Virus record (IMG/VR): IMGVR_UViG_3300010371_000033
Coordinates: 1 to 64,000 of that record
DNA length: 64,000 bases
Source of the DNA: a virus
Strand: one strand, 5' to 3'
A program made the position numbers and the translations under genes. The notes under the pieces are model-generated. The model made no database searches and was not told the DNA's origin. It worked only from the letters and a program-made list of their open reading frames with translations. Shown here piece by piece: positions 1-27,303 of this stretch (position 1 is the first letter of the stretch; each line of letters opens with the position of its first letter).

Positions 1-74
1 ACCGAGGGGAGCTTCTACCTCCTTACACGTAACTGGAGTTGAGAATGCGGGTTCGAATCCTGCCAGCCGCGCCA
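1..74 (+). tRNA. partial, irregular tRNA, anticodon probably TCT (Arg)
   Basis: The 5' end lies outside the window. A perfect T-arm (47-63) and a 3' acceptor strand with encoded CCA (72-74) are visible. The best anticodon arm is a 5-bp stem 7-11/19-23 around loop 12-18, giving anticodon TCT. Between this arm and the T-arm lie 23 nt containing GTAACTGGAG, which looks like a D-loop but sits where the variable loop should be. The same arrangement recurs in the tRNA at 3883. Identity as Arg is inferred from the anticodon only. Confidence 0.6.
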
Positions 75-4712: not shown

Positions 4713-4904
4713 ATGAAGACGACTGAAGATATTATTCTTGAAAACGTAGAGAAAGCTATCAAAGACTACAATGACGTACCTAAGCACACTAGCAACAAAC
4801 TTCTTTATCGGTGGTATGCGTTTGGAGTAATTTCTTCAGCTTTCACTTCTTTACATTTTCCTTCACATGAATATTACAGTTATCTTGAACGCATAAATAT
4901 ATAG
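4713..4904 (+). CDS. small hypothetical protein (63 aa)
   Basis: ATG after a GGAGCAATATC leader. Acidic helical N-terminus (TTEDIILENVEKAIKDYND), then an aromatic-rich part (LLYRWYAFGVISSAFTSLHF) that may contact a membrane. No family recognised. It sits between tRNA-Leu and tRNA-Gln. Confidence 0.55.
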   Translation: MKTTEDIILENVEKAIKDYNDVPKHTSNKLLYRWYAFGVISSAFTSLHFPSHEYYSYLERINI

Positions 4905-5096: not shown

Positions 5097-5582
5097 ATGA
5101 GCAAGTCAAATTACGACAAGAAGATCACGATTGAAGAACTTCAGGAATTCATGAAAAGTGTTGGACCAAACACCAAGGTGTTCTATGGCTCTGACTCTGA
5201 ACGCTATAAGCATAATGGTGTTTGGTATGCTGATTATTTCTGTGTTATCGTGATTCATGTTGATGGATGCCATGGCGGAAAAGTGTTCGCTGAAGTCTCC
5301 ACTGAAGCAGATCATGACCAAAATGTTGACCGTCCTTTCAACCGTCTGATGACGGAGACGCAGAAGGTTGCAGAACTTTTCTTAAGGACCAAGGAAGTGT
5401 TCTATGACTATGAAATTGAAATTCACTTGGACATCGCACGTGATGAGAAGTGGGGTTCAAACTGTGCTGCACAGGCAGCGACTGGTTACATCAAGGGTGT
5501 GTGTCAAGTTACGCCTGTATTGAAGAATGACTCCTTCGCGGCATCGTTCTGTGCCGACCGTGGTAGGGAATTCATTCACTGA
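5097..5582 (+). CDS. YkuK/DUF458-like RNase H-fold protein (161 aa)
   Basis: The pattern of an early acidic motif YGSDSE (30-35), a strand YFCVIVIHVDG, a long helix with VDRPFNRLMTETQKVAEL and the strand EIHLDIARDEKWGSN is that of the YkuK/DUF458 family, predicted to have a ribonuclease H-like fold. Asp33 and Asp113 would be candidate metal ligands. The family's substrate is not established. In this context, processing of the surrounding tRNA/RNA transcripts or host RNA is possible but is inference. Confidence 0.7.
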   Translation: MSKSNYDKKITIEELQEFMKSVGPNTKVFYGSDSERYKHNGVWYADYFCVIVIHVDGCHGGKVFAEVSTEADHDQNVDRPFNRLMTETQKVAELFLRTKEVFYDYEIEIHLDIARDEKWGSNCAAQAATGYIKGVCQVTPVLKNDSFAASFCADRGREFIH

Positions 5583-5590
5583 TAAGTAAT

Positions 5591-5705
5591 GGTTGGTGGT
5601 CAATTAAGCGTTGACTTAAATTCAAGGGAATCGGAGTTAGCTGCTCCGTAACCGAGGGAATGTCCGAGCAATAAGCAAAGACTACACCAACCACTACCTT
5701 TTTTT
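5591..5705 (+). ncRNA. structured small RNA with closing stem and T-run
   Basis: Ends pair over 8 bp, GGTTGGTG (5591-5598) with CACCAACC (5685-5692), followed by ACTACC and seven Ts. Internal hairpins: GTCAA/TTGAC (5599-5603/5611-5615) and CGGAG-TTAGCTG-CTCCG (5632-5648), the latter shaped like an anticodon arm. There is no T-loop consensus or CCA. It has the same overall plan as the elements at 807 and 5926, and its end ACTACC-T7 matches that of the 5926 RNA. Confidence 0.55.
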
Positions 5706-5713
5706 GATGGGAA

Positions 5714-5917
5714 ATGAAAATGAAAACGTATCAATTATCCGCAAGTGTAACTGTAAGTGCCTACACTGAAGTTGAAGCCAACAGTCTTGAAGAAGCGATA
5801 GAAATCGCAAAAGGACGCTCTGTTTTGATTGGTGATGAAAGAAGCGGCGTGTTTGTAGATGAAATGTGGGCAATTGATGAAGCAGATGGTGAACCAACAA
5901 ATATACATGAAGCGTAA
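5714..5917 (+). CDS. small acidic hypothetical protein (67 aa)
   Basis: Starts at ATG 5714 (or 5720) after a GATGGGAAATG leader. The layout of a strand (YQLSASVTVSAYTEVEA) then SLEEAIEIAKGRS and acidic strands resembles the small beta-alpha-beta proteins common in phages. The pattern EANSLEEAIEIAK is seen in many unnamed proteins. It lies between two structured RNAs. Function unknown. Confidence 0.6.
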   Translation: MKMKTYQLSASVTVSAYTEVEANSLEEAIEIAKGRSVLIGDERSGVFVDEMWAIDEADGEPTNIHEA

Positions 5918-5925
5918 GAGATGAT

Positions 5926-6049
5926 GGTAGTGAATGCGGAGGCTGATCCGCAAGGAATGGTGACCGAGTGGCGTATGGGCTGCGGGGTCAAAAATCCTAA
6001 ATCCTCCATACAAGTCAGAGAATCCAGCACTGGCCACTACCTTTTTTTT
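5926..6049 (+). ncRNA. structured small RNA with closing stem and T-run
   Basis: GGTAGTG (5926-5932) pairs with CACTACC (6035-6041), followed by eight Ts. Inside are TGCGGA/TCCGCA (5935-5940/5947-5952) with a six-base loop and a large arm GTATGG/CCATAC (5973-5978/6006-6011). The segment GACCGAGTGGC resembles the D-loop of class II tRNAs, but no CCA or TTCRA loop is found. Third member of the set with 807 and 5591. Confidence 0.55.
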
Positions 6050-6112
6050 GAATGCGACGAAGCGATAATATTGAATTAGATAGCGATCATTGTGCTTAAG
6101 AAGGATAAGATC

Positions 6113-6513
6113 ATGATGACCCCGACCGACATCGATCTGGCGCATGCGCTGCGTGAGTTGATCCCATACGCGGCCGAGTGTGCGGCATGTCCCGGTTACA
6201 GGATCAAGAATGCACGCGCTGCCCTCGCTGCACACGAATCCCGCGCTGCGGAACCGGTGTATCAGGTGCGTCATTCTCAAACTTGGGCAGACGTAAATAA
6301 ATCGGATTACGACATATCCAAATCTGAACGCCGCATTCTCCACACCCACCCGAACCGGCGCGGGATGTTGTGCAAACCATCCGCAATGCGCTGATTCTTT
6401 CGGCATGGTCGAGTCATAATGATTCGGCAACGGCGGCGCAGATGAGACAAGCGGCAATCCTGCTGTTCGGTCAAGAAATGTTCGATGCTGCGATAGAGAA
6501 GGAAAACAAGTGA
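6113..6513 (+). pseudogene. GC-rich acquired gene with one frameshift
   Basis: From ATG 6113 (MMTPTDIDLAHALRELIPYA) the frame ends at 6394, but the adjacent phase carries on coherently (PPEPARDVVQTIRNALIL... to EKENK) to a TGA at 6511 that overlaps the next ATG. The switch lies around 6350 in the CACCCACCCG tract. Joined, it gives about 133 codons with the look of small proteins of proteobacterial prophages. The first part is clearly richer in G+C than its neighbours, suggesting recent transfer. Sequencing error at the C tract is possible. Confidence 0.5.
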
Positions 6514-6866
6514 TGAACACGATAAGTGGTTTCGTTGAAATCCCATCTGTTGATCTTAAACTTGCGTGTAAGAAATTTCTAGACGCACAACAAAAGATGA
6601 TTGATGATGAAAGAGAAATGCTGATTCAAAAAGAAATGAGTCGCATGTTCTTCCGTGCAAAGAGACGTGACATAGCTATTGCAAGACTACAAACCAGAGT
6701 CAAATATGGTGTTACAGAATGGATTCGCGCTAAGATGGTTGCATCATTTCGCAGATATGATGTTGAGGATCTTTATGATTCAGCATGCATGGCTCCGAGT
6801 GTTTTAGTGAATGCCAATTTTGCAAGTCTATTGAGACCATATCTAGAAACGGATGCATTCAAATGA
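6513..6866 (+). CDS. hypothetical protein (117 aa)
   Basis: ATG overlaps the TGA of the preceding broken gene (TGATG), and its own stop overlaps the next ATG. Mostly helical and charged (FLDAQQKMIDDEREMLIQKE, then RAKRRDIAIARLQTRVKYG). No known domain. The overlaps on both sides suggest coupled translation with the phosphatase. Confidence 0.6.
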   Translation: MNTISGFVEIPSVDLKLACKKFLDAQQKMIDDEREMLIQKEMSRMFFRAKRRDIAIARLQTRVKYGVTEWIRAKMVASFRRYDVEDLYDSACMAPSVLVNANFASLLRPYLETDAFK

Positions 6867-7552
6867 ATGATCTCGTAAAACATTTCAGCAAGAACACAGA
6901 TGGTCGAGACTTTATTGTAGGTGACCTGCATGGGTGTTTTGATTCTCTTCGCCAATCATTGTCTGATGTAAATTTCAATGAATCCACAGATCGCTTGTTC
7001 AGTGTTGGTGATCTTGTTGATCGTGGAACGCAGTCTGAGGAATCCATTGATTGGATTGCCAAACCTTGGTTTCATGCTGTCCGCGGAAACCATGAACAAA
7101 TGGCTATTGAAGTATTCGGTGGTGGGTGGCCTGAACATAATTACATCTCCAATGGCGGAAAATGGTTCACCAGACTCCCACCAGAGAGACAGAAATTGTT
7201 CGCACAGATTTTTGAAACTCTACCCATTACCATAGAAATAGATCACCAGATTGGAAAGATTGGCATCGTGCATGCTGATTGTCCTTACTCTGATTGGCAT
7301 TCTTTTGTTAATGTTCTTAGCTCTGATGAAAGTGATGAATCAGACAACATCATTTATGAAATGAGCATCACTGAAAAAGCTATCTGGTCCAGGACTCGCT
7401 TTCAAAAGCAAGACACTTCCAATGTGAAAGGTGTTGAACGTATCTATGTTGGACATACTCCCATCAAGGAGTGGACGATTCTAGGGAATGTTTATTTCAT
7501 CGACACTGGATGTGTGTTTGGTGGCAAGTTGACTCTGTTGGAGATCAAATAA
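6863..7552 (+). CDS. PPP-family metallophosphatase (Ser/Thr phosphatase-like, 229 aa)
   Basis: Shows the full PPP signature: GDLHG (20-24), GDLVDRG (49-55), RGNHE (74-78), GIVHADCP and YVGHTPI. Those Asp, His and Asn residues bind two metal ions. Spacing and length match the phage lambda NinI (221-aa) protein phosphatase type, which hydrolyses phosphoserine, threonine or tyrosine. The start is ATG 6863, overlapping the previous stop; a longer upstream reading is only overlap. The target is unknown. Related bacterial enzymes also hydrolyse dinucleoside polyphosphates, so that role is the main alternative. Confidence 0.88.
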   Translation: MNDLVKHFSKNTDGRDFIVGDLHGCFDSLRQSLSDVNFNESTDRLFSVGDLVDRGTQSEESIDWIAKPWFHAVRGNHEQMAIEVFGGGWPEHNYISNGGKWFTRLPPERQKLFAQIFETLPITIEIDHQIGKIGIVHADCPYSDWHSFVNVLSSDESDESDNIIYEMSITEKAIWSRTRFQKQDTSNVKGVERIYVGHTPIKEWTILGNVYFIDTGCVFGGKLTLLEIK

Positions 7553-8196
7553 TGTACAATGACGAATATGTGAGCACGAAAGATCTTTTGAAATACACAA
7601 GCTACAAGAAGTATGTAGATGAACTTCTAAATTCAAATGGTAGAGTGAGTCATGTGTACATACCTATGTCTCCACTCATCAAAACCAAGGAACTGCAAAG
7701 AGCTGTTCATAAGTATGCTGGCAATGGTGTTGTTAGCACTTATGAAAACACCAACCATGAACTTGTTGTTTCAAGGATACACGTAACTACTTCCCCCAAT
7801 CTAAATTTGAAAACCATCGAGAAAGATACAGATTCCAAGAAAACTCCTTTCATCTTCAAAGTGGGTGATAAAGGCAAGACGGTAGCTGGGGAGTCTTATG
7901 AGGTTGTTGAACGTACAGTAGCACTGAGAGTTAAGATCACCGACAAATTCGGACGTGTAAGAAACGCAATCAGGAAGGAAAATGGGGAAGTCGTTAATGG
8001 ATGTAGTTATCAAAATAAAGAAAAATATAAGCTTCTACCACCCACTGAAAAACGAACTGTTTATTTGAATGTTTATCCAAAAAATACATTCTCTCACGAC
8101 ACACTAGAGGCTGCGAAGCGGAATGCTGATAAGGACGTTTTAGCTGTTGGCATACCTGTTATGATTGAATTCTCTCGCGAAGAAAGCAGTATTTGA
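7552..8196 (+). CDS. hypothetical protein (214 aa)
   Basis: The ATG overlaps the TAA of the phosphatase gene (TAATG). The N-terminal part is helical with DLLKYTSYKKYVDELLNSNG; the middle is a beta-rich basic section (FKVGDKGKTVAGESYEVVER, then VRNAIRKENGEVVNGCS) suggestive of a small barrel. The end carries HDTLEAAKRNADKD. No family recognised. Its neighbours suggest a role in host takeover, but nothing direct shows this. Confidence 0.65.
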   Translation: MYNDEYVSTKDLLKYTSYKKYVDELLNSNGRVSHVYIPMSPLIKTKELQRAVHKYAGNGVVSTYENTNHELVVSRIHVTTSPNLNLKTIEKDTDSKKTPFIFKVGDKGKTVAGESYEVVERTVALRVKITDKFGRVRNAIRKENGEVVNGCSYQNKEKYKLLPPTEKRTVYLNVYPKNTFSHDTLEAAKRNADKDVLAVGIPVMIEFSREESSI

Positions 8197-8511
8197 ATGT
8201 TCAATGTTTATCTAGATGATGTTAGAAAGGAACCTGTTGAATGGGTTCGAACCAAGACTGCACCTGAAACTGTATCAATGTTGATAGAACATCAAGGACA
8301 AATCAATATATTGTCACTGGACCATGATCTTGGAGAATGTGAGCATGCTGGAACAGGCCATGATGTTGTTTTGTTCCTTGAAGAACAGGTCTACAACAAT
8401 CCTAAATTTATCTTCCCGAAACAAATACAATGTCATTCTGCGAATCCAGTTGGGAGGGACAGAATAGAACAAGTGATAAGAAAATTGAGAAGAATGGGTA
8501 AGATTGTTTGA
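8197..8511 (+). CDS. cREC (cyclic-phosphate processing receiver-like) domain protein (104 aa)
   Basis: Begins MFNVYLDDVRKEP and contains SLDHDLGE, then HSANPVGRDR near the end. These are hallmarks of the cREC family, a stand-alone receiver-like fold found in phages and bacteria and proposed to act in cyclic-phosphate processing. The LDD motif and the DHD motif would form the acidic pocket. ATG directly follows the previous stop; the terminator starts at the gene's last base. Biochemical function of the family is a prediction, not proven. Confidence 0.75.
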   Translation: MFNVYLDDVRKEPVEWVRTKTAPETVSMLIEHQGQINILSLDHDLGECEHAGTGHDVVLFLEEQVYNNPKFIFPKQIQCHSANPVGRDRIEQVIRKLRRMGKIV

Positions 8512-9074: not shown

Positions 9075-12000
9075 TTACTTGTTGCTGATATAAGACAAGG
9101 AAATTCCCACATTAGGAGTATTAGCGGAACTGGTTCCATCACTCACAGTACACCAAGCAGTGCCAGAAGCACTAGTAATACTATCAGCTCTAAAAGAAAC
9201 ACTAGCATCAGTGTTCGCGTTTGTAATGTAAATATTACCACCGTCTGTGCTGGTAGTGGTAACATGCCAATTGTATGTGTAGGAACCATGCCCATTGTGG
9301 CCAGCCGCTACGGTTGATGGACTGGTAACAGCTGTGCCTTTTATTGCAAGTCCCGATGCTGCTCCTGACGCCTGTGTACTGTTAACTGTAGCACTCACAG
9401 GTGTGTAAGTTATCGTAACAGCAGAATACATGGTGCCTGTGACTGGTCCAGCTATCGTTTGCCCATTCAATAGAATAGACGCATTGTAGCTATACACAGC
9501 ATTAGCAGTTGTAGAACTCGTCAATGTTAGTGAACCACCTGTGTTGCCGCCATTGATAGCAACTGTTCCAGTTGCGCCACTGGATTTCACGATACTTAAC
9601 TGATAAGCGCCACCAGTAGCATTAGAACTCAATGCTATGGTTGATTTGGCAGTTAGACTTCCACCACCTGAAACAGCGGCATTCGCAACAGATACGCCAA
9701 ACGCTGGGTTGTAAACTGTTGCAGTCAAGGCATAATTTCCAGATGTTAATGTTGTTATCAAATTACCATCTGGATCATATACATTACAAGTCTGGTAAAT
9801 GGTTCCAGTTGTTGTACCAACACTTCCCCTCGTCTGTGTGGTCGTAATATATCCATTTGAACCACCTGGAGTTGACCATGCAGGAATTGTTCCTGAAACA
9901 CCATTCATTATCCAGAAAGCATAATCACCTGAACCTGTGAGTCCATTTAAAATGCACTGTGATGATGTAGTCTGAGCGAAGTTGAAGCCAGCAGCAGACA
10001 CATTGCTTGGTGTTGTTAGAGTGTAATTAGGAACGGTTCCTGTAGCTGATAGAGACACCTGTTTGGTAGCACTTTGAATCACGGTGCCATTTGTAAGAAC
10101 ATTGAATGTCACATTGTATGTCGCGGATGATGTTGTGTGCAGACCTGTAACACTCAAAGTACAACTAGTGTTACCAGCGCCATAATTCACGGATGCACTG
10201 CCGGAAACAGGTGCAGCTGAAACTTGGTAACTCACTCCAGGAATAGAAGCATTCGCGGACGCAGTCAAAACAATTGATGCAGTTGAAGTGAATTGTGCTG
10301 ATTGCGTGTTAGATGTTGGGCCTGAAATCACCAATGCTGGATCATAGAGCTGTGAAGACACTTGAATTGTTGGTGTAGGACTTACTGTGGCAACAGCTGT
10401 TCCATTCACGTACAAAGTAACAGCGGCAGGATAACCAGAAGCTGATAAAGAACCAATATCACTCTCTGTTAAATATCCAACCCATTGGCTGTTTCCTGAA
10501 CCTTGTAAATAATTACTCGTAAGTGCACCAGAAACAGCTGTCCATGCTCCCCATGTCCAAACCGGCGCGCTTATAGAAGAATTGCAAGTTGCTGTTTCAA
10601 TTCCATAAGCAGTCTGGGCACTTATCCAACCCGCCACGATACTGTTTGCACCTGACACGGATGGAGAAGGATCATAATTGTTAGCAGTCAATGATACGGT
10701 TGATGCCCAACCAATGTCATTTGATGATGCTTCATAGAATGAGATTGTTGGTTGAAAGGTGATTGTGTCTGAAAGATTCTGATAAGTCGCACCAGTCTTT
10801 AATGAATAATTCATTCTCCAATGGACGGTGTTTTGCACCCCATTTGTCAGAACAGGAGCGTCTCCTGTGTTTGATACAGCAACAGATAACGCAGTTGCTC
10901 CATTCCACAAAGTCAAAATGTAGCTGCCAGAAGCTGTTTGAGCCGTGTATCCATAGACAGCAGAATTGCTGAAGCTTATTACAGGATTTGGGAAGTAGGA
11001 ACGCAGAATCACAGGATAGCTAAAAGTCTGCACCAATCTTCCAGAATCATCTAACAGATTGCCTGAAATAGTCGTGGTGTAATATGCAACAGGCGCAGCT
11101 GATGTCAGAGTGGTAGTGAATCCAATAACAGATGCTGTTGTGTTAGAGGTGAAACTGTAACCACTCGTTGTGTTAGAGCAATTCCAACCAGACAGTGTGT
11201 ATCCAGAAATATTGCAAGTTGGTGTTGTTGTGATGTTTAAGTTGGAAGCAGTTGAACTCAACAATTGCGTGTTGGTTGCGTTAGAAGGAACAGAAAAACT
11301 ATAAGCATTCTGCTGGGCAATTAAACTGAATGTTTGGGCTGATGAAGTGTAAACCACCGCATTACTGTTGGGATCTACAGCAGTAACTTGCCATGACTCA
11401 ACCACTGTATTAGTTGATGGCACAACTGTTGTTTGAGTCCAAGTTGCAGTTGAGTTATTGGCAGAACCAGATGTTGAGAATGTTGGGGAGGCGCCAGAAG
11501 TGTTAGAATAAATCCAACCCACTTTACCTGATGATGTTGCTGTTGCTGTTGCAATCGCTGTTTGTGCTGCATATCCAGATTGCGTGTTTGACACTGGTGT
11601 GACAAGTATTGTTAATCCATAAGTACCAGCCACCAAGGTCACAGTTTGTGTATTTGCATTCAGAGACCAATTGGTTGATGTATCATAACAATTAGCTGTG
11701 ATGTTGTAAACAGCATTGGTGAATAGATAAGTGTTGGCATCAAGAGATAATGTTAATGAAGCATTTTGATTGTTATTTGCTACTGATAAAATGGCATTTG
11801 AACCAGAAACTTTAGTAGCAGACCAAACAACATTAGTTCCTGGTGGAGTATTGCCAGAAACAGCTAAGACAACAGAAGAACTCAATGGACCACTGTTGGC
11901 ATATTGAGCATTAGAAGTTGGACCTGAAACAATCAAATTGTAAGGTTGAACAGTGGCACTCAAGTTGACATTTGTTGTTGGACCTGATATTGTGATTGAT

Positions 12001-13364
12001 CCATAAGACAGAGTGGGTGTTATTCTCCAAGCTGATGTATTGCTTCCTGTGCGTTGGGAAATAACATCAGATAATGTTATACTAGCTGGCGTTACGCCAA
12101 CAACACCAGATGATAGTGACACATTAGCAACGCCAGAAACAGCATTGTATATCCATGCGAATGTTCCTGCTTGATAAGTTGCGTAACCAGATGTTGCTGC
12201 AGTCTGAGCAGTAAATCCTGTAACAGAAACATTAGATGGTGGTATGTAATCTAAGCCATACACCAATCCTTGCATGGATATATTCGCAGAATGCGTCGTG
12301 ATAAGAGTCGTCAGAGTAGCATCAGAATACATATTGGCTGTAACAGTCACGATGCTGTTTGCTCCGCCATATGTGGTAGAATTAGCAGCTATCAGAAGAG
12401 ATAGATTGGCGGTTAAATTACCAGAAGCTACTGTCAAAGTAGCCGCGTTGCTCCCTGAAACAATAGTACTGTTCCAAGTGATTACTGAACCAGGAGTATT
12501 GCCAGATACAGAAAATGGAGCGGAAGCATACAATGGACCTGAATTAGATGAAACAACAACATTTGCAGGTGCAGTAAAAATGAAATCATTAGAATACATA
12601 AAAGCTGAAACATTGGCTGTCACTCCACCACCTGTAACAGTTTGCCCTGAGAGCATGACCAATGCTGTCAACTGATATGAAGTTGCATTTACCAATCCAG
12701 CTCTAGAAGAAGATGCTGTAAGCGTGACTGTGTTGCCATTGATTGAAACTGCTGAAGTATTATTAGGAATCACATTCCAATTAATAGTTGAGCCAGGAAC
12801 GTTAGCATGGGCTGTAACTGCCAAGGTTGCAATCTGGTTGCTGTAACCATTCGCAAAGGAAACAAATCCTGAAGGAACAGAAGTGAAAGTCAAATTGGAA
12901 TTATAAACATTCGCTTGTAAATTGACGTACACCGTGTTGCTACCAATCAAAGTGTTTCCATAATAGACTGAAGCAGTCACTCCAGCATTGGCAGCAGAGT
13001 TACCGATGCTTGATCTAGACAATGAAAGGGACGCATTAGCACCAGAAGAAGTGAAAACAGTTGCGTCACCAGCAATAAGATTAGATGACCAAACTATATT
13101 GGCTTGGTAAACATTGGTCAAGAACTGCAGATTGACACTAGAATTAGCTGTGAAATAACTAGATTGACTGTTACTCAAAGGGCCAACGATAGGTCCAACA
13201 CCATATTTGCCTGATAGATCAGCAAAACTGATAGCACTTTTGGTAGGTATGTCAGCAGCAATACCTGTTAACGCTCTGACTAAAGTATCATTGATGGTGA
13301 TAGGAGCAGTCTGAGCGAAATTTAATTGCTGGTTTACACCTGAAAAGGAAGTATTAGTTGGCAT
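9075..13364 (-). CDS. giant repetitive tail fibre/adhesin-like structural protein (1429 aa)
   Basis: Almost entirely Ser, Thr, Asn, Ala, Gly and Val in alternating beta pattern, with no cysteine-rich core or enzyme motif. The N-terminus (VNQQLNFAQTAPITINDTLV then a SFADLSGKYG segment) looks like the attachment part of a phage fibre. The remainder is a row of Ig-like units in which AQTA or AQTT recurs (at about residues 16, 385, 595, 810, 920 and 1130), followed by a Trp-containing strand. The C-terminal 120 residues (GNIYITNANTDASVSF and beyond) would be distal. Its place at the end of the baseplate/fibre operon supports a receptor-binding or decoration role, by inference. Confidence 0.8.
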   Translation of the reverse strand: MPTNTSFSGVNQQLNFAQTAPITINDTLVRALTGIAADIPTKSAISFADLSGKYGVGPIVGPLSNSQSSYFTANSSVNLQFLTNVYQANIVWSSNLIAGDATVFTSSGANASLSLSRSSIGNSAANAGVTASVYYGNTLIGSNTVYVNLQANVYNSNLTFTSVPSGFVSFANGYSNQIATLAVTAHANVPGSTINWNVIPNNTSAVSINGNTVTLTASSSRAGLVNATSYQLTALVMLSGQTVTGGGVTANVSAFMYSNDFIFTAPANVVVSSNSGPLYASAPFSVSGNTPGSVITWNSTIVSGSNAATLTVASGNLTANLSLLIAANSTTYGGANSIVTVTANMYSDATLTTLITTHSANISMQGLVYGLDYIPPSNVSVTGFTAQTAATSGYATYQAGTFAWIYNAVSGVANVSLSSGVVGVTPASITLSDVISQRTGSNTSAWRITPTLSYGSITISGPTTNVNLSATVQPYNLIVSGPTSNAQYANSGPLSSSVVLAVSGNTPPGTNVVWSATKVSGSNAILSVANNNQNASLTLSLDANTYLFTNAVYNITANCYDTSTNWSLNANTQTVTLVAGTYGLTILVTPVSNTQSGYAAQTAIATATATSSGKVGWIYSNTSGASPTFSTSGSANNSTATWTQTTVVPSTNTVVESWQVTAVDPNSNAVVYTSSAQTFSLIAQQNAYSFSVPSNATNTQLLSSTASNLNITTTPTCNISGYTLSGWNCSNTTSGYSFTSNTTASVIGFTTTLTSAAPVAYYTTTISGNLLDDSGRLVQTFSYPVILRSYFPNPVISFSNSAVYGYTAQTASGSYILTLWNGATALSVAVSNTGDAPVLTNGVQNTVHWRMNYSLKTGATYQNLSDTITFQPTISFYEASSNDIGWASTVSLTANNYDPSPSVSGANSIVAGWISAQTAYGIETATCNSSISAPVWTWGAWTAVSGALTSNYLQGSGNSQWVGYLTESDIGSLSASGYPAAVTLYVNGTAVATVSPTPTIQVSSQLYDPALVISGPTSNTQSAQFTSTASIVLTASANASIPGVSYQVSAAPVSGSASVNYGAGNTSCTLSVTGLHTTSSATYNVTFNVLTNGTVIQSATKQVSLSATGTVPNYTLTTPSNVSAAGFNFAQTTSSQCILNGLTGSGDYAFWIMNGVSGTIPAWSTPGGSNGYITTTQTRGSVGTTTGTIYQTCNVYDPDGNLITTLTSGNYALTATVYNPAFGVSVANAAVSGGGSLTAKSTIALSSNATGGAYQLSIVKSSGATGTVAINGGNTGGSLTLTSSTTANAVYSYNASILLNGQTIAGPVTGTMYSAVTITYTPVSATVNSTQASGAASGLAIKGTAVTSPSTVAAGHNGHGSYTYNWHVTTTSTDGGNIYITNANTDASVSFRADSITSASGTAWCTVSDGTSSANTPNVGISLSYISNK

Positions 13365-16587: not shown

Positions 16588-19500
16588 TTACTCTTTCTTA
16601 ATGGTGACTCTGCCATTAGTCGTGTTATGAACAGAAACATAGAAGTCTTTCTGTTCACCAGCCCAGTAGCACAAATCTTGGCCAGATATTGAAATTCTGT
16701 TCACTGTTCTTTCTTGAACAGGTTCTACTTTCATAATAGTATCCCAGAACACATATGGGGTCTTTCCTATTTGTCTTGAATCCATTACAGGCAATTGTTT
16801 GCCTAATGAATTCTCTGGTAGGAATCTCTCGAAATCACGTCCTTCGAGAGGAGTAGATGAAGAAATCACGACTGTGGCGCCACAAGCCATATGTAGTCTG
16901 AAACATGGTTGCAAACTTTGGTAAGCGCGACTGATGCGACGAGACAATACATTTAGATCCTTATGCCTACACGCTGAAATCAAATCATCCTTAGCATATT
17001 CACCAATTAGTTTGTTATCAAGTGGAGTGTAGGATTGCACATCAGCGCATCCACCGCCACCACCCATTGGTCGAGTTGGTTGTATCTGTGTGATAGCATT
17101 CATTGTCATCTGCATACTTACATTAGCCAGTGATGTGTTACCAGAAACATATGTAGCAGTCACTCTGTAAGTTGAAGTGGTGTTTGAAGCGCCATTCTGC
17201 AAGAAAGCCCAGAATTGGTTGTTGCTTGGCGGATTCCACTTGCTGTTAAATATTGTGTTTGAACCTGAAATTGGTGTGATAGCCCAATTCCAATATGCGC
17301 CAGGAACTGTGTTAGAGCTCGTTGCTTGGAACACAATACCAAATCCGGCTGCGCAAGTCACATTATCAGATACGATGTCTCTCAATTGTGAATTCCACAC
17401 GTTACCAGCTGGTGGTGGCATTCCTGTCACTTCTAGATAAGCAGTGATTTGAGGGACCACATTTGGAGAAGGTGGTGGGAGAGCAGGAACCAATCTGCTC
17501 AACTTATAAGACTGAACAGTAGATGAAGTCAAGCCAGAAGAGTCTTTCGTAGTCAATGTCACGTTAACTTGTTGTGTATTGGTCAACATGTTAGAATATG
17601 TATGACTTACAGATTGTCCTGGAGTTGTAATGACCTGTGTTGAACCATCACCAAAATTCCAAGTCCACTGGCTGATAGGATTGCTACCAGCTGCTGAAGT
17701 GTCAATGAAATTCAATGTTGGGAATGTAGGGGTTACAGTGGTAAGTGACGCAGTTCCAGAAGTCAATTTGAAAGCTGCTGTTGGAGCAGTGTTCGCTCTA
17801 ACAGGCACAGTTGTTGGTGGTGGTAATGATGGAGGAGGAGCTGGTGGTGGCACTCTGTAAACTACATCAGCAATAAACACAGCAGCCGCTCCAGAAACAG
17901 GAGCGTCTGTAACCGCATCAATTGATGAATCCAATACAGTTACAACATGTTGACCACCCATGAAGTAGTTGGCTGGTATGCTCAATTTGGCATACAAGTT
18001 ACCACGTGAATCGGATTGCAGAGCATTTCCCCAAGTTCCTGATCTTGTTACTAGACTATCATCAGATGTGTTACCAGAAGCGTTATATGTACCAGGAGCT
18101 GCCCACTGGTTTGCAAGAACACTGTCAATGTATATATTGTATTGTGTATATGGTTTCAAACCACTCGTGACAATGGCCAATTGTCTGGTTGAAATATAAG
18201 ACTGTACAGAGACATTGATATAAGTGGCATCATTCAAAGAATAACTGTTTGGATTGTTTTCATTACCACTTAGAATTGTAGCACTGCGCAATGAATTGGA
18301 TTCGCTGTTGGAAGCAGCAGCCAATGAAGTCTGAACAGATTGTCTCCACCAACCAAAGGTCATTGTTAATGGTGGACCTGCCATCTCAGCCAACGCCATT
18401 GTTGCTGGTGATCCATCAGAAGATATAGATGCTGCTGGTGCAAATGCTTCTACTTCAGACCAGAAATCAGGATACACACGCATACTACCAGCGAAGGTTG
18501 GTGGCATACCAGACAAGAATCTTTCATCTGTTGCATAACCTTGGGTAATATGTGGAACAGAATTATAAGCAATTGACAATGAGTCGCCAGTCTGTTGAAT
18601 GTTTTGAGAGTCTGCACCACTGTATTGCAACTCAACGAACCAAGGATAAATCAATGGACGTGCATAACTGTTCTGAGCGTCGATAGCAATCTGATATTGT
18701 GGAAGATCAGTCCTACCAAAAGCATGGCTGGACATTGGATCAACGAAAATACCATTCTTGAATTGTTCTTGACCATTACCATTGATTGTGCTGGTTGAAG
18801 CTGCAGCATTCTCGAGGGTATTCAATGTTACATAGTATTCAAGCTGTGATATACGCTGGTCTAATGAAGAAATATCATTCATCGTATAACGACGATGGCT
18901 CTGTAAAGATACCGCCATATCATAAGTTGCAGGAGCATTTGGAAACTCCTGTTGTTCATTAGAAGGCAAAGAAGGATATGGTGGTACTGTGATGCTAGCA
19001 ATGGCCAAATTTGTATTCGCGTCATAAGTAGATAGACGTGGATTCAAGGATGGCACACCTTCAGCAATATTAAATGAACCTGAAGAACTTAACAACAACA
19101 AGTCCTTTCGTCCTACATAATGTGTTGCGTTACAAATGAAGTTTCCAGATGGGAAAGGAGTTTGTCCTGTTGTTCTGGCATCAAACGTGTTAGAGTCAGT
19201 AGGATTCAAAGTGGCATTTGACAGAGAGTTACCAATGTTAGCTGTTGCTGTCTTGTAAGGACGGAAATCAACACAATCTCTCAAATTGTAGGAAGTCTGT
19301 TGTGAAATTGAGAAGAAGGTGGGAATTTCTGCAGTCTTGATCGACGCAAGTGTATTGGCTGAAACCGTGTCATCCACAGGATAACTATCAATGCTGAAGA
19401 AGCCAGACCCTGTTGTGTTGTTAGGAGTGAAATGATCAACCATCACAACCATCAACTGGTTGGCATAAGCAGCTACATTCGCAGTTGGAGATAGACTCAA

Positions 19501-22084: not shown

Positions 22085-23866
22085 TTATGGACTCAAGAAA
22101 ACATGAATGGTATCTGAAGGAGAAACCGGATTGTGTAAGACAGGTGTAAAATTGCTAAGGTAGATTATTTCACCACTGTAGGGTTCAAGACTTGGCGCTC
22201 CTGTTATGGTATTTAGTGTCAGTTTCGCGCCCGAAGACAAACCAGTCAATACTTCACCGACTTGAATGTTTCCTTCCCAACCTGTTACATCAACAGTCAG
22301 AGCTGAAGCATTAGCAGCTGCTACAACTACAATTCCGTTTTCAGCTGATCCTTGAAGTATCTCACCAGTCTGGAAGAAAACACCACCGTCAGAAACAAAT
22401 TTCATGGACACACGTTGATTGAATGAAATGTGTGTGTAAGGATTGTTGTTCTGATAGAAAGTAGGATTTTTTAATATACCAGCAGACCTGTAAGTAAAAT
22501 TGACATTAGCTTCACCCAAACCGAAATTAGAGTCAGTATTGGATAAAATAGCTGTTATGCCGATGGTGTTAGCGAACAATTCTGACGCAACATTAGAACC
22601 ATGTCCGCCAGCAGGACTGATAATCGCTCTCAAGGAAGCGTTGGCACCAAACACACTTGGAGTCTTAATTAAAGCAGTCGCAAAATGGTATCCGGAACCA
22701 GGATTCAAAATAATCACATCAGAAACACCACCATTGGTGTTAGCAACTGTTGCATATGCACTGAAATCTGTTCCATCTCCAAGAACCTGCACAGCAGGTC
22801 CTATCTGATACTGATAACCAGCATTGATTTGGTTTGCAGTAAATGAGCCAGCTACTGTGATTTGTTGATATGGACCAGCAGATACAGAACTCAGGATAGA
22901 GAAATTATTTACTATGCCGCCTGCTCCCCAAACTGTTAGATAGCATCCTTGATAATAGTTTACATAAGGACTAGGTTGGGCAGACAGGTAAATGCTTCCT
23001 GCTCCATTCGCTCCTGTTGAAACAATCACACCACTAGATGTGGGATAATTTGAACCAGAGCTTGCGACATCTACACTGTATATGGCTCCATCCACAGCAT
23101 TGTTAGAAGTATTGGCTTCCTGATACACAGGAATCATTGAGGTTGTTGAATAAGGTTGTGTTGGTGGCAATGTGTACAGATACATCCATTGGTAACCATC
23201 TGACAACACAGGTGGGAATGCTTCTGATGAATTAACAGTAGGTTGCACTGTGCTAGGCATTCCTTGCGCGTTATTCAAACATTTGTAGACAACACCAGAG
23301 CTATTCACGACAAAAAATGATTCATTAGACAAATCAGGATCTTGGTCATCATACTTTGCATAGACGGTATTGCTGGTCCATCTATTCAGAGGAACCATCA
23401 TCATAAAAGTATTCGGACCAAGTTTCTCACCCATCATCATCTGTTGATAAGGAACATAGAATGTGCCATTAACAGACGTGTTTACAGCGTCTGGAGTTGG
23501 ATCATTCACGAAAGGTTCAGAACGTCCAACAAACATATAGTAAGAGTCAGCATCAATAATAGAAACAAGATTAGCACCTGTACCAGTGTTACCAGCAACA
23601 GAAAGAGAAGGTGCTATGCTATACAATCCGCTGGTGGTAACATTCGCTTCTGTTATCACACCATTGGGATCAGTCATCACAGTGGCAATTGCATCAGGTG
23701 TTAACACTGGATCATTAGGATCACGGGTGAAAACAATATTGGTGCCATTAGAATAAGCAGTGCCACCATTTTCAATCTGAACAATGGAAATGGGTCCCTG
23801 CATAGAAGCAAGCACATCAGTATTAAAAATTTGGGAGAATCCTGAGAGAATTACATTCTGTGCCAT
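22085..23866 (-). CDS. 8: baseplate wedge protein gp8-like (593 aa)
   Basis: Start taken at MAQNVILSGFSQIFNTDV, which overlaps the stop of the upstream gene; an extra 22 codons upstream lie inside that gene. The early segment YYMFVGRSEPFVNDPTPDAV and the later NESFFVVNSSGVVYKCLNNA, GMPSTVQPTVN, SDGYQWMYLYTL are the signature of the gp8 family in T4-like phages. In T4, gp8 is a dimer in the baseplate wedge contacting gp6, gp7 and gp10. The C-terminal half is extra beta material. Two bases separate it from the next gene. Confidence 0.82.
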   Translation of the reverse strand: MAQNVILSGFSQIFNTDVLASMQGPISIVQIENGGTAYSNGTNIVFTRDPNDPVLTPDAIATVMTDPNGVITEANVTTSGLYSIAPSLSVAGNTGTGANLVSIIDADSYYMFVGRSEPFVNDPTPDAVNTSVNGTFYVPYQQMMMGEKLGPNTFMMMVPLNRWTSNTVYAKYDDQDPDLSNESFFVVNSSGVVYKCLNNAQGMPSTVQPTVNSSEAFPPVLSDGYQWMYLYTLPPTQPYSTTSMIPVYQEANTSNNAVDGAIYSVDVASSGSNYPTSSGVIVSTGANGAGSIYLSAQPSPYVNYYQGCYLTVWGAGGIVNNFSILSSVSAGPYQQITVAGSFTANQINAGYQYQIGPAVQVLGDGTDFSAYATVANTNGGVSDVIILNPGSGYHFATALIKTPSVFGANASLRAIISPAGGHGSNVASELFANTIGITAILSNTDSNFGLGEANVNFTYRSAGILKNPTFYQNNNPYTHISFNQRVSMKFVSDGGVFFQTGEILQGSAENGIVVVAAANASALTVDVTGWEGNIQVGEVLTGLSSGAKLTLNTITGAPSLEPYSGEIIYLSNFTPVLHNPVSPSDTIHVFLSP

Positions 23867-23867
23867 G

Positions 23868-25499
23868 TTATGAAACCTGTATGCTGGACTGCCATCCAAA
23901 TGATGATGATTGGCGTTGTACCATTCTACCAAACATCTGCGTTCCTGCTACATGCCAACCATTCTTAACAATGCTAGCATATTGATCTGGTGATAATGAA
24001 GATTGAATCTCGTAACTATAATTCTGATAATAATATGAATCCTGCAGATATTTATCATAGTCTAGAAAACCCTGGGTGTTCTTCCACTTACCATATCCAT
24101 AGCCAACTCCAACAATCTGTGCAATACCATTTGCAAATATACCCTTGTTGTTTGCGCTGAATAATCCAAGATGTTCTCTAGACACAAATCCTATTCCAGA
24201 CTGTTTCACAACAACATTGGCAATGGCTCCAGAACCAAATGCAGCGAAACCAACAATGTTAGCATCTGTTCCATCCAGAACACCATTCAGATCTAGCAAA
24301 TGCAAGGAAGCAATCACTGGATTATTTACTGTGGCGGTTATCTGTGAAGTGTATCCAGCACCAGGGTTGACTGAAGTTAAAAGCTCTATGGTGCCGACTT
24401 CAATAGTCTTTATGTTAAGTGCTACTTCTAGGGGTGTGCTGATATTGGCAGAAGGGTCCTCAGGAAAGCCATATGATGTTGCATGCAAGACAGTGTTGGT
24501 GTAAGGATAAATGAAATCATTACTGCATGTTACATTGAAAGTATTAGACAATGAACCAATTTGAAATGTCGCTCCTGAACCAGGATCTGTATTAGACTGT
24601 GTGATAGTTATGCTCTGATCTGTGAAACCAATTGAATCAGTGGTGGTATTAACATATCCAACGCCACCATCAACGATCTGAAAATTCACAACACCATTCT
24701 TAGGCTCAACTGCTGACACAACACCCACAGCATTAATTGCTGGATTGGTTTCTGTTGTAGCAAGGAAGACGTTTAGATTATCACCAATATCAAAATCTAG
24801 ACCACCTTGATAGACTAACACTCCACCTAGAGATCCTACTATGTAAGGTGTATTCAATGAATCCATCAGCATACTGCTAAATTTGATAGCTTCATTGGGA
24901 ATGAATGTTCCTGATATATTGCTAACATATAGAAGATAAGAACTCTTGCTCTTTGAGAGCATCCTTCTTTCAAACCGATACACATAAGCAGTTGCACCAG
25001 ATTGTGCTCCAGTTACTATGCTTCCTTCAGTTTTCACCAATACAGGACTGTAAGACACTTCTATGTAATTCTCTTCATTCCAAATACCATCTGATGTTTT
25101 GAAAAGATCATTGCCTGGTCTATACACATCAACATCTTCGCCATAAAGAGCATTAAACAAATATTTTATGCCTTGGGTTGAACCTTTCATCCCGATGATT
25201 TGTTTGATGTTCTTAACCAGTGATCTTACATCAGCATCAGAGAAATTGGCAAGAGGTATACCCTGTAGATATTTGGTTTCAAAGTGAGACAGATATTGAG
25301 GCAGAGTGGTGTCAATGTCTCTGTTAAGCATTAATGCTTGAGACTTTGCGTCAATGTTACCTTCTAATCCAAGCCATGTGTAATAGGCCTGAAGGAAGGC
25401 AATGAACAAAGGACCATTCTGTCTATAGATAGAAGGTAATTGTTGAGGAATATATGGAGCTTGATTTGTTTCTAGTGAAAATATATCAGGCGTTGACAT
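23868..25499 (-). CDS. 7: baseplate wedge protein gp7-like (543 aa)
   Basis: N-terminal helices QQLPSIYRQNGPLFIAFLQA and the segment GMKGSTQGIKYLFNALYGED, followed by VYRPGNDLFKTSDGIWNEEN, are those of the shortened gp7 versions found in T4-like phages outside enterobacteria. The rest is beta-rich with Gly/Asn turns. T4 gp7 is 1032 aa, so this is about half. The position between gene 6 and gene 8 fits. It overlaps gene 6 by 14 bases. The symbol is based on position and the N-terminal pattern. Confidence 0.75.
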   Translation of the reverse strand: MSTPDIFSLETNQAPYIPQQLPSIYRQNGPLFIAFLQAYYTWLGLEGNIDAKSQALMLNRDIDTTLPQYLSHFETKYLQGIPLANFSDADVRSLVKNIKQIIGMKGSTQGIKYLFNALYGEDVDVYRPGNDLFKTSDGIWNEENYIEVSYSPVLVKTEGSIVTGAQSGATAYVYRFERRMLSKSKSSYLLYVSNISGTFIPNEAIKFSSMLMDSLNTPYIVGSLGGVLVYQGGLDFDIGDNLNVFLATTETNPAINAVGVVSAVEPKNGVVNFQIVDGGVGYVNTTTDSIGFTDQSITITQSNTDPGSGATFQIGSLSNTFNVTCSNDFIYPYTNTVLHATSYGFPEDPSANISTPLEVALNIKTIEVGTIELLTSVNPGAGYTSQITATVNNPVIASLHLLDLNGVLDGTDANIVGFAAFGSGAIANVVVKQSGIGFVSREHLGLFSANNKGIFANGIAQIVGVGYGYGKWKNTQGFLDYDKYLQDSYYYQNYSYEIQSSLSPDQYASIVKNGWHVAGTQMFGRMVQRQSSSFGWQSSIQVS

Positions 25500-27303
25500 A
25501 TGGCACCACGTTGACGGTTACATTTTGTGGTGTAATAGAAAGAATCTGACTGCTCCCAGCTATAATGTCTGAAGAGTGAAGTTGAGCTGTGAAAGATAAA
25601 ACATTAGATGAGGAAGGCATCGCTTGAATAATAAATGGAACGATAGAAACTTGCCCTGTAGCATAATCCACAGAACCAACAGATGGAGTCAAAACAATTT
25701 CTGTATTGCTGGCCATTACAACATTTAATACACCCAAACCATTATCCTGAATCAAAGCTTGTGTGTTTGAAGTGTAATAGAACACAGAACTAGAAAACAC
25801 TGGGCTGAAACTAGAAGGATAAAGAGTTGGAGATGAAAATGGGTAGTACAGAGGATTCTGATAATTGAAGGAATAACCTGTAACCACTCCAACAGGAGGT
25901 ATGTAATTCTTAATTAAAGATGTTGTGAATTGCATACTGATTATTGAAGCGTCGATAGCAGTAATGCTATTTGACAATGGTGTTTCCCAGAAACTTGCAC
26001 CGAACTTCTCTAGACTCGTCTGATCATATGTTAGGATCGTGTCAACGATTTCTGCTGTCAACTCTTGTGGGGATGAAGAAGTCTTCAATGGATTGTAAGC
26101 AACAGTGCATTCAAGATTGATATTGTAGATATCTGGTTGTATGACTTTTGCTGTTAAACCCAAAGACATAATAGGTTGCAAGAATCCAATCACTTCATCC
26201 GCAAGATTTGAGGGAATGAAATCTAATCCTGCGAGTTTTCCACTTACCAACACGATTCCATATTGTTTTTGAGGTGTAGCATCCTCACCACCATAAGCTG
26301 CAACTGATTGAAATTGCGGGAAATTATCTTGGATTAATTCCTTATAATCATCTGGAGTAATAGCTTTTCCCTGGGTCTGGTAGTATCTAGGAGCTGAGAA
26401 CTGGACGCTTTCACTTGTTTCTCGTTCAGATCCTCCAGCAGCGATTGTATTGGCGGCAGATATGTTGATAGTGACACCAACCAATCCTGTATTGGACATG
26501 GGGCTGAAGTTCCCAACACCATTGCCACCTGTCCCAGATGTTTCCCTGTAATTAACAGTGACTATATTGCCAGGAGATAAAGCAGCTCCAATCCTACCAT
26601 TTCCAAACACTATCTGATAATAATTGTCTCTATATCCTTGCAAGAACCAAACTTGACTGTTAGATGTTACACCAGAGAATCCTGAAGAATAATTCCAAGT
26701 CGCGGTTGTTAGGTCAGAAACTGAATTCTGCACACTCACATAGATGGAAGTGGTGTCAACATTTGCAGACTCCAACCCGAACAGACTTGAATTACCAGCC
26801 ATGGTGTTGGAAACGAAAGTTTCTGTAATCAGTCTGCCTTCATAGAAGTTGACATTGGCAGTCCAATTATTCTCAGAAGTTAATACAGTTGGAGTATCCG
26901 TGATAAATGTTAATGAGGAACCATTAGAACCAGTCGCTGAAACAGCAAATCCTGTTGGTAAAACAACCACTCCTGGTATATCATTGCCTCCCAATTGAAC
27001 CTCAAGATTAACAAATGCAGAGGTTCTAGAGCGAGGGGAATAGTTTAGTTCTTTTGCGTGAGAAACAATAGACTCCCTCAACTGCGCTGAATCAAGAAAC
27101 ATCTCACTAGCAGCAAAGTTAAGATAAAATGCTTTCAGTGTGGTGTTGTATGTTAACAGGTCTAACAATACAGAAATGTTTGAACCTTCATAATTCCAAT
27201 CTTTAAACAAGTCTTGTTGACTCATGAAGAGTTTCAAGGACTGTTTAAGTGTCTGAAAGTCTAATTCTGAACTCGTTAGATAACCTGGTGTTGTATTTGC
27301 CAT
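25486..27303 (-). CDS. 6: baseplate wedge protein gp6 (605 aa)
   Basis: MANTTPGYLTSSELDFQTLK followed by FKDWNYEGSNISVLLDLLTY, NTTLKAFYLNFAASEMFLDS and ELNYSPRSRTSA is the conserved gp6 N-terminus. The middle carries the baseplate J-like core (RYYQTQGKAITPDDYKELIQ). Length is close to T4 gp6 (660 aa). Gp6 dimers form the ring that ties the six wedges together around the hub. One base separates it from gene 25 upstream. Confidence 0.92.
   Translation of the reverse strand: MANTTPGYLTSSELDFQTLKQSLKLFMSQQDLFKDWNYEGSNISVLLDLLTYNTTLKAFYLNFAASEMFLDSAQLRESIVSHAKELNYSPRSRTSAFVNLEVQLGGNDIPGVVVLPTGFAVSATGSNGSSLTFITDTPTVLTSENNWTANVNFYEGRLITETFVSNTMAGNSSLFGLESANVDTTSIYVSVQNSVSDLTTATWNYSSGFSGVTSNSQVWFLQGYRDNYYQIVFGNGRIGAALSPGNIVTVNYRETSGTGGNGVGNFSPMSNTGLVGVTINISAANTIAAGGSERETSESVQFSAPRYYQTQGKAITPDDYKELIQDNFPQFQSVAAYGGEDATPQKQYGIVLVSGKLAGLDFIPSNLADEVIGFLQPIMSLGLTAKVIQPDIYNINLECTVAYNPLKTSSSPQELTAEIVDTILTYDQTSLEKFGASFWETPLSNSITAIDASIISMQFTTSLIKNYIPPVGVVTGYSFNYQNPLYYPFSSPTLYPSSFSPVFSSSVFYYTSNTQALIQDNGLGVLNVVMASNTEIVLTPSVGSVDYATGQVSIVPFIIQAMPSSSNVLSFTAQLHSSDIIAGSSQILSITPQNVTVNVVPYVNA

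Follow-up and report, generated by a model that had tools for sequence, protein, structure and literature searches.

A variant Hint domain at the C-terminus of a baseplate-region phage protein and its phage-tail subfamily

The last 153 residues of a baseplate-region phage protein of 1831 amino acids form a true Hint domain, which is carried on a glycine linker and belongs to a distinct phage-tail subfamily. The gene is located in a stretch of viral DNA of 64,000 nucleotides (hereafter the window), which is part of an IMG/VR record of 84,701 bases and comprises a tail gene block of the T4-superfamily type on its minus strand; all features of the window given below lie on that strand.

The domain and its fold

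The carrier gene (P0001; 16588..22083) encodes a DUF4815/VrlC-like tail protein of the baseplate region. This class assignment is based on profile matches of the ORF to Pfam DUF4815 (4.5e-47) and phrog_358 (4e-193), on 43% identity to the VlrC protein of DLP_6 and on the baseplate gene order. Directly upstream, a baseplate wedge subunit was found (22085..23932; phrog_438), and the adjoining baseplate wedge genes include a phrog_17744 match and a gp6-like wedge protein (25486..27303; Pfam and PHROG matches). Within the carrier, residues 1462-1523 form a PKD domain (17515..17700; Pfam PF18911, 1.8e-7). Elsewhere in the window, a 1429-aa protein (9075-13364, minus strand) with many Ser/Asn/Thr-rich repeats is likely another tail or fibre protein and has no Hint domain. 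No second copy of the variant Hint was detected in a search of the 84.7-kb record.

The variant ('SxxTP') Hint domain itself (residues 1679-1831; 16591..17049) follows a Gly5 linker that was read from the ORF translation (residues 1674-1678; 17050..17064). It starts with Cys1679 (17047..17049), the predicted N-terminal nucleophile, and its block G comprises His1819-Asn1820 (16624..16629), the latter being the putative site of Asn cyclisation. The 11-residue tail TTNGRVTIKKE (16591..16623), with Lys1829 and Lys1830, ends the protein. Block B reads S-S-S-T-P (residues 1741-1745; 16849..16863), and HMM alignment to the SEEH motif of gp41-1 puts Thr1744 at the place of His B:10 of inteins. The sequence-only reading had built its proposal of an intein-related domain on Gly1674-1678, Cys1679, GATVVISSSTPLEG, KVEPVQERTVNRIS and His1819-Asn1820-Thr1821 followed by ten residues; each of these is found at its proposed place in the 1831-codon ORF, and the absence of the block-B His was confirmed as well. 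In the alignment, the domain of the window keeps all family-invariant positions.

The identification as a Hint domain is borne out by sequence profiles, by the predicted structure and by the conserved Cys/Ser1 and His-Asn. A family profile from 11 relatives, with the window left out, matched, of the 1043 fragments from all six frames of the window, the carrier ORF alone (E=5e-21). Compared against PDB sequences, a six-member profile matched the gp41-1 intein (5.7e-6), the BIL domain 2lwy (0.007) and Hedgehog (0.09), while a profile from a deep alignment gave 1.1e-4 to the gp41-1 intein. Structure prediction and comparison, the check suggested for the Hint horseshoe, revealed that fold and not a structure lacking it: the AlphaFold model of the window domain (pLDDT 86.5, pTM 0.83) found DnaB inteins as its best Foldseek matches (E 1.5e-6), and a structural aligner gave Z 17.5 to Hedgehog and to the RecA intein. 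For a second subfamily member, modelled from 47 sequences, the pLDDT was 91 and the match to the Ssp DnaB intein had Z 17.5; in both models the tail after the Asn is disordered. One might still suspect a chance resemblance within a repetitive structural protein, for which only the low identity to known inteins speaks; the family profile and the fold match rule this out, and we give it practically no weight.

Composition and conserved residues of the subfamily

A tblastn search against phages revealed relatives of the domain at the C-termini of tail-region proteins of the Xanthomonas phages PhiXhv-12/15/16, XacN1 and LucasX, the Erwinia phage Ep032 and the Stenotrophomonas phage DLP_6, and a further relative is encoded on a Microbulbifer plasmid. 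Scans of viral DNA with single sequences delivered no relatives; these came from an alignment and, after it, from a search with the pattern [FY]AAG-x6-I-x-[TS]-H-N at the DNA level. The pattern gave 63 viral stretches, most of which are members by HMM, and the removal of duplicates led to 60 distinct aligned proteins, mostly found by the pattern.

Position 1, which is not part of the search pattern, is Cys in 47 and Ser in 13 of these proteins and is never occupied by another residue. The Ser members form one clade in the tree and thus the change from Cys to Ser is a single event. Block B has the form S-x-x-T-P instead of the T-x-x-H of inteins, with Thr in 59 of 60 proteins and His in none, so that the missing block-B His is, as judged from this alignment, a rule of the subfamily and not a peculiarity of the window copy. 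The equivalent of Asp F:4 is lost as well (Arg, Thr or His in 46/60). His-Asn is present in all 60 proteins, for which it was selected by the pattern, yet it was also found in every tblastn relative and is kept at about 20% identity. At +1, Ala, Val, Ile, Leu, Pro and Gly predominate; Cys, Ser or Thr occur in six proteins and Pro in another six. The tail beyond the Asn has 3-12 residues in 56/60 proteins and contains Lys in 59/60, compared to 9.8 expected from composition. Four proteins have tails of 12-61 residues and still carry a Lys at +5 after His-Asn, and thus the tail Lys tracks the Hint domain and not the end of the protein. It is the sole conserved Lys of the subfamily and, besides the penultimate His, its most conserved basic residue. 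Most members are preceded by a Gly-rich linker (a mean of 6.2 Gly over the 12 residues that lead up to position 1), with Gly at -1 in the window and in 35/60 relatives.

Scans with the domain alone showed that no Pfam, NCBIfam or PHROG model covers it, and our literature search, which covered few subscription journals, found no account of these Hint domains of virions. The subfamily is thus without a curated model, and it fails defining features of both inteins and BILs, namely the block-B His and, for inteins, the conserved +1 nucleophile. With class 1 inteins (gp41-1, DnaB, RecA) the window domain shares the Hint fold over residues 1-144 (Z 16-17.5), Cys at position 1, the penultimate His and the terminal Asn. 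In contrast to them, it lacks His B:10 with its TxxH motif and Asp F:4, it is C-terminal, and an 11-residue tail takes the place of a functional C-extein; its subfamily lacks a conserved Cys, Ser or Thr at +1. Type A BILs resemble it in the His-Asn end, in the absence of a conserved +1 Cys/Ser/Thr (at the level of the family, the window having Thr) and in the 2lwy comparison (profile E 0.007, Z 15.0), but they differ from a subfamily that has Thr for the block-B His throughout, a poly-Gly linker, a conserved Lys tail and phage tail proteins as carriers. The Hedgehog autoprocessing domain is likewise a C-terminal Hint with Cys1 (Z 17.5), while the window domain ends with His-Asn and, with only 11 residues past Asn1820, has no sterol-recognition region.

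Canonical Hints of phage virion proteins (HNK-GGGG; L149, L116, L128 and others) occupy the same place in these proteins and have Gly linkers and a basic residue after His-Asn as well. Unlike the variant, they possess T/SxxHP in block B and a different block F, and they can sit within the chain. Dozens of them (CFxAGTxI...TxEHPF...VHNK) were seen in L081-L171 inside or at the end of virion proteins with poly-Gly after them, in tandem in L084, L128, L132 and L171. The residue after His-Asn is Lys or Arg, also in six copies that were not selected for it. Both types occur in tandem in L012 (ORF 5292-8477) and L059, where a canonical Hint with block-B His and an HNK end directly precedes a Gly tract and a variant Hint in the same protein.

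Taken together, at least 60 phage-tail domains that uniformly lack the block-B His and have the nucleophile, His-Asn and the tail Lys represent a natural system for studying how a Hint domain works without that His, and the subfamily might deliver a new cleavage or ligation tool.

Possible self-processing and its alternatives

A 2014 review (PMC4031507) counts two inteins without the block-B His, one of them a pseudogene. In the Tko CDC21-1 intein, which lacks His B:10, Lys58 is reported to compensate for it (PMC4031507). Like the subfamily, this intein has kept its N-terminal nucleophile. However, its Lys is located inside the intein, whereas the sole conserved Lys of the subfamily lies in the tail after the Asn, and its -1 residue is Leu (PMC6333167), compared to Gly in the window. 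The N-S acyl shift of the Ssp DnaB intein is abolished when the block-B His is missing and Gly stands at -1, and it is restored by bulky residues at that position (PMC6333167). Consequently, the window domain either needs another activator or its N-terminal end is inactive.

Our leading guess, which we put forward tentatively, is a Lys-assisted, BIL-like self-processing of single turnover instead of splicing; it is put first because the tail Lys is the most conserved basic residue besides the penultimate His, and each of its catalytic steps is inferred, whereas the fold and the conservation are shown. Cys1679 would attack the carbonyl of the preceding Gly1678 to form a thioester, while a Lys of the short tail, which in Hint domains leaves the fold next to this junction, might provide the activation for which the block-B His is missing, in analogy to Lys58. 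By hydrolysis or aminolysis the baseplate protein would then be detached from its Hint domain, and cyclisation of Asn1820 would release the tail without joining the exteins. BILs, which lack a +1 nucleophile, still cleave or join (PMC4031507). The Hint homology and fold, the Cys or Ser at position 1 of all 60 proteins, the His-Asn of all tblastn relatives, the near-invariant tail Lys, the architecture of the VrlC junction and the presence of the module on unrelated tail proteins support processing. Against it count the loss of the block-F Asp, the combination of Gly(-1) with a missing block-B His that is inactive in Ssp DnaB (PMC6333167), the six Pro residues at +1, the origin of Ser1 in one event and the phage Cr30, where the carrier is split without a Hint. 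Furthermore, since the tail is disordered in both models, these do not support a placement of the Lys at the active site. The subfamily further suggests that self-processing may affect many proteins of the tail tip, the fibres and the baseplate; the sequence-only reading had proposed that it would serve as a maturation switch.

The main alternative, at less than even probability, is that the fold was kept while cutting was lost. The domain would then stay tethered at the C-terminus through its flexible Gly linker and act as an adhesin, a cap or a surface for assembly, with Cys/Ser1, His-Asn and Lys serving structure or binding. The uniform loss of His B:10 and the block-F Asp fits this scenario, as do the inactive Ssp DnaB combination (PMC6333167), the long Gly linkers and conserved tails expected of a domain that stays attached, and a further copy without Cys and His-Asn in PhiXhv-12 and Ep032. 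However, the restriction of position 1 to Cys or Ser in 60 proteins and the persistence of His-Asn at about 20% identity are hard to understand without chemistry.

Somewhat unlikely in our view is a C-terminal reaction alone, in which Asn1820 would cyclise with the help of His1819 and clip the short tail, leaving Cys1 a structural role. While the invariant His-Asn and the loss of all N-side activators would agree with that, the tail is itself conserved, being short and with Lys in 59/60 proteins, which is odd for waste. In addition, Pro at +1, as in six members, is unfavourable for C-terminal cleavage, and position 1 remains a nucleophile.

Rather improbable is a new Hint chemistry, in which the tail Lys would either replace His B:10 or be the nucleophile itself, the Gly-Cys thioester being resolved onto a Lys of the tail, of a neighbouring virion protein or of the host surface as an isopeptide bond. 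If so, a Gly-linked C-terminal module would cleave or covalently tether many unrelated phage tail proteins.

Very improbable, finally, is a true splicing intein with the last 11 residues as C-extein. The sequence-only reading had called His-Asn-Thr the classic intein C-terminal junction; the three residues are indeed present, and Thr at +1 would suit splicing, but the label misleads, because Cys, Ser or Thr occupy +1 in only 6/60 proteins and the C-extein has 11 residues in the window (3-12 in 56/60 proteins). Ordinary extein splicing is thus unlikely, and we rejected it; no gene-interrupting copy of the variant subfamily was seen either.

Carrier proteins and the VrlC junction

The Hint-bearing carriers are unrelated to each other and comprise DUF4815/VrlC proteins (window, DLP_6), GTA/lambda-J-like tail tip proteins (Phage-tail_3, phrog_1101), a tail collar fibre, a tail fibre and others. 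Clustering placed 24 carriers in one group and 11 in a second, with twenty smaller groups besides, several of which contain sequences cut short by contig ends. Judged from these sequences, the variant Hint is a mobile module that tail proteins carry at their C-terminus. The neighbouring genes are lineage-specific, which ruled out a universal partner gene downstream. The copy of XacN1 belongs to ORF231 (BBA65379.1), in which a Gly is followed by CVAATSYV and the His-Asn stands in YTHN; a public set of virion proteomics data exists for this phage (PXD008065), but no ORF23x is mentioned in the main text of the corresponding paper.

Among the DUF4815/VrlC proteins of T4-superfamily phages, to which the carrier itself belongs, the Hint of the window is placed where two halves meet that related phages encode as a single chain. 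The next gene of the window (P0002; 14932..16575, 547 aa) corresponds to the C-terminal half of a long protein, based on its match to phrog_358 positions 1413-1581 and to the C-terminal half of single-chain relatives, so that phrog_358 spans both the P0001 and the P0002 product. In seven relatives (Rhizobium RHph_I1_18, Ochrobactrum OC, Variovorax V45v66, Stenotrophomonas Moby, Synechococcus S-CREM1, Pelagibacter HTVC008M and Dickeya Ds25CZ) both halves are one chain with a linker of 40-207 residues and without a Hint. The viral contig L149 encodes a single VrlC-like chain (2272-aa ORF) with two tandem canonical Hints in the linker exactly between the halves, while L116 has separate genes for the two halves, the first of them with two canonical Hints and a short domain at its end. 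The first gene of the window and of DLP_6 is closed by a variant Hint, and the gene that follows encodes the second half. A gene split and a putative protein-level separator are found at the same place, and one might speculate that the ancestral job of the Hint at this junction was to separate two halves, which would now be done by the gene break. However, Cr30 has two genes that are split at another point without a Hint, and thus a gene split needs no Hint. As to a descent from a single insertion at this locus, the window and DLP_6 Hints stand apart in the tree, although the window branch is long and an AU test did not reject a shared clade (p 0.245).

Further observations concern individual records. 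In L148 (about 4745-4803), the reading frame shifts within the Hint at the VrlC junction, where a stretch coding for TKNIEDVLI is repeated; this may be a real mutation or an assembly error. The DLP_6 record opens with an unannotated frame (L005:3-1655) that holds a second variant Hint and probably spans the record start. L060 comprises two successive variant Hint genes, the first with a Pro-rich, poly-Gly extension of 61 residues past His-Asn. A contig binned to a Methanoregulaceae archaeon (L018) carries a GTA/lambda-J-like tail tip gene that ends in a variant Hint, and is probably a misbinned phage or prophage contig. In Ep032 and PhiXhv-12 (L006:6336-6758, L002:6339-6758), the gene directly after the Hint-bearing one encodes a second family-like domain without Cys1 and His-Asn. 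The Hint domains of these two phages (OQ603359.1 and PV764601.1, respectively) are 99% identical, while their recorded hosts belong to different families.
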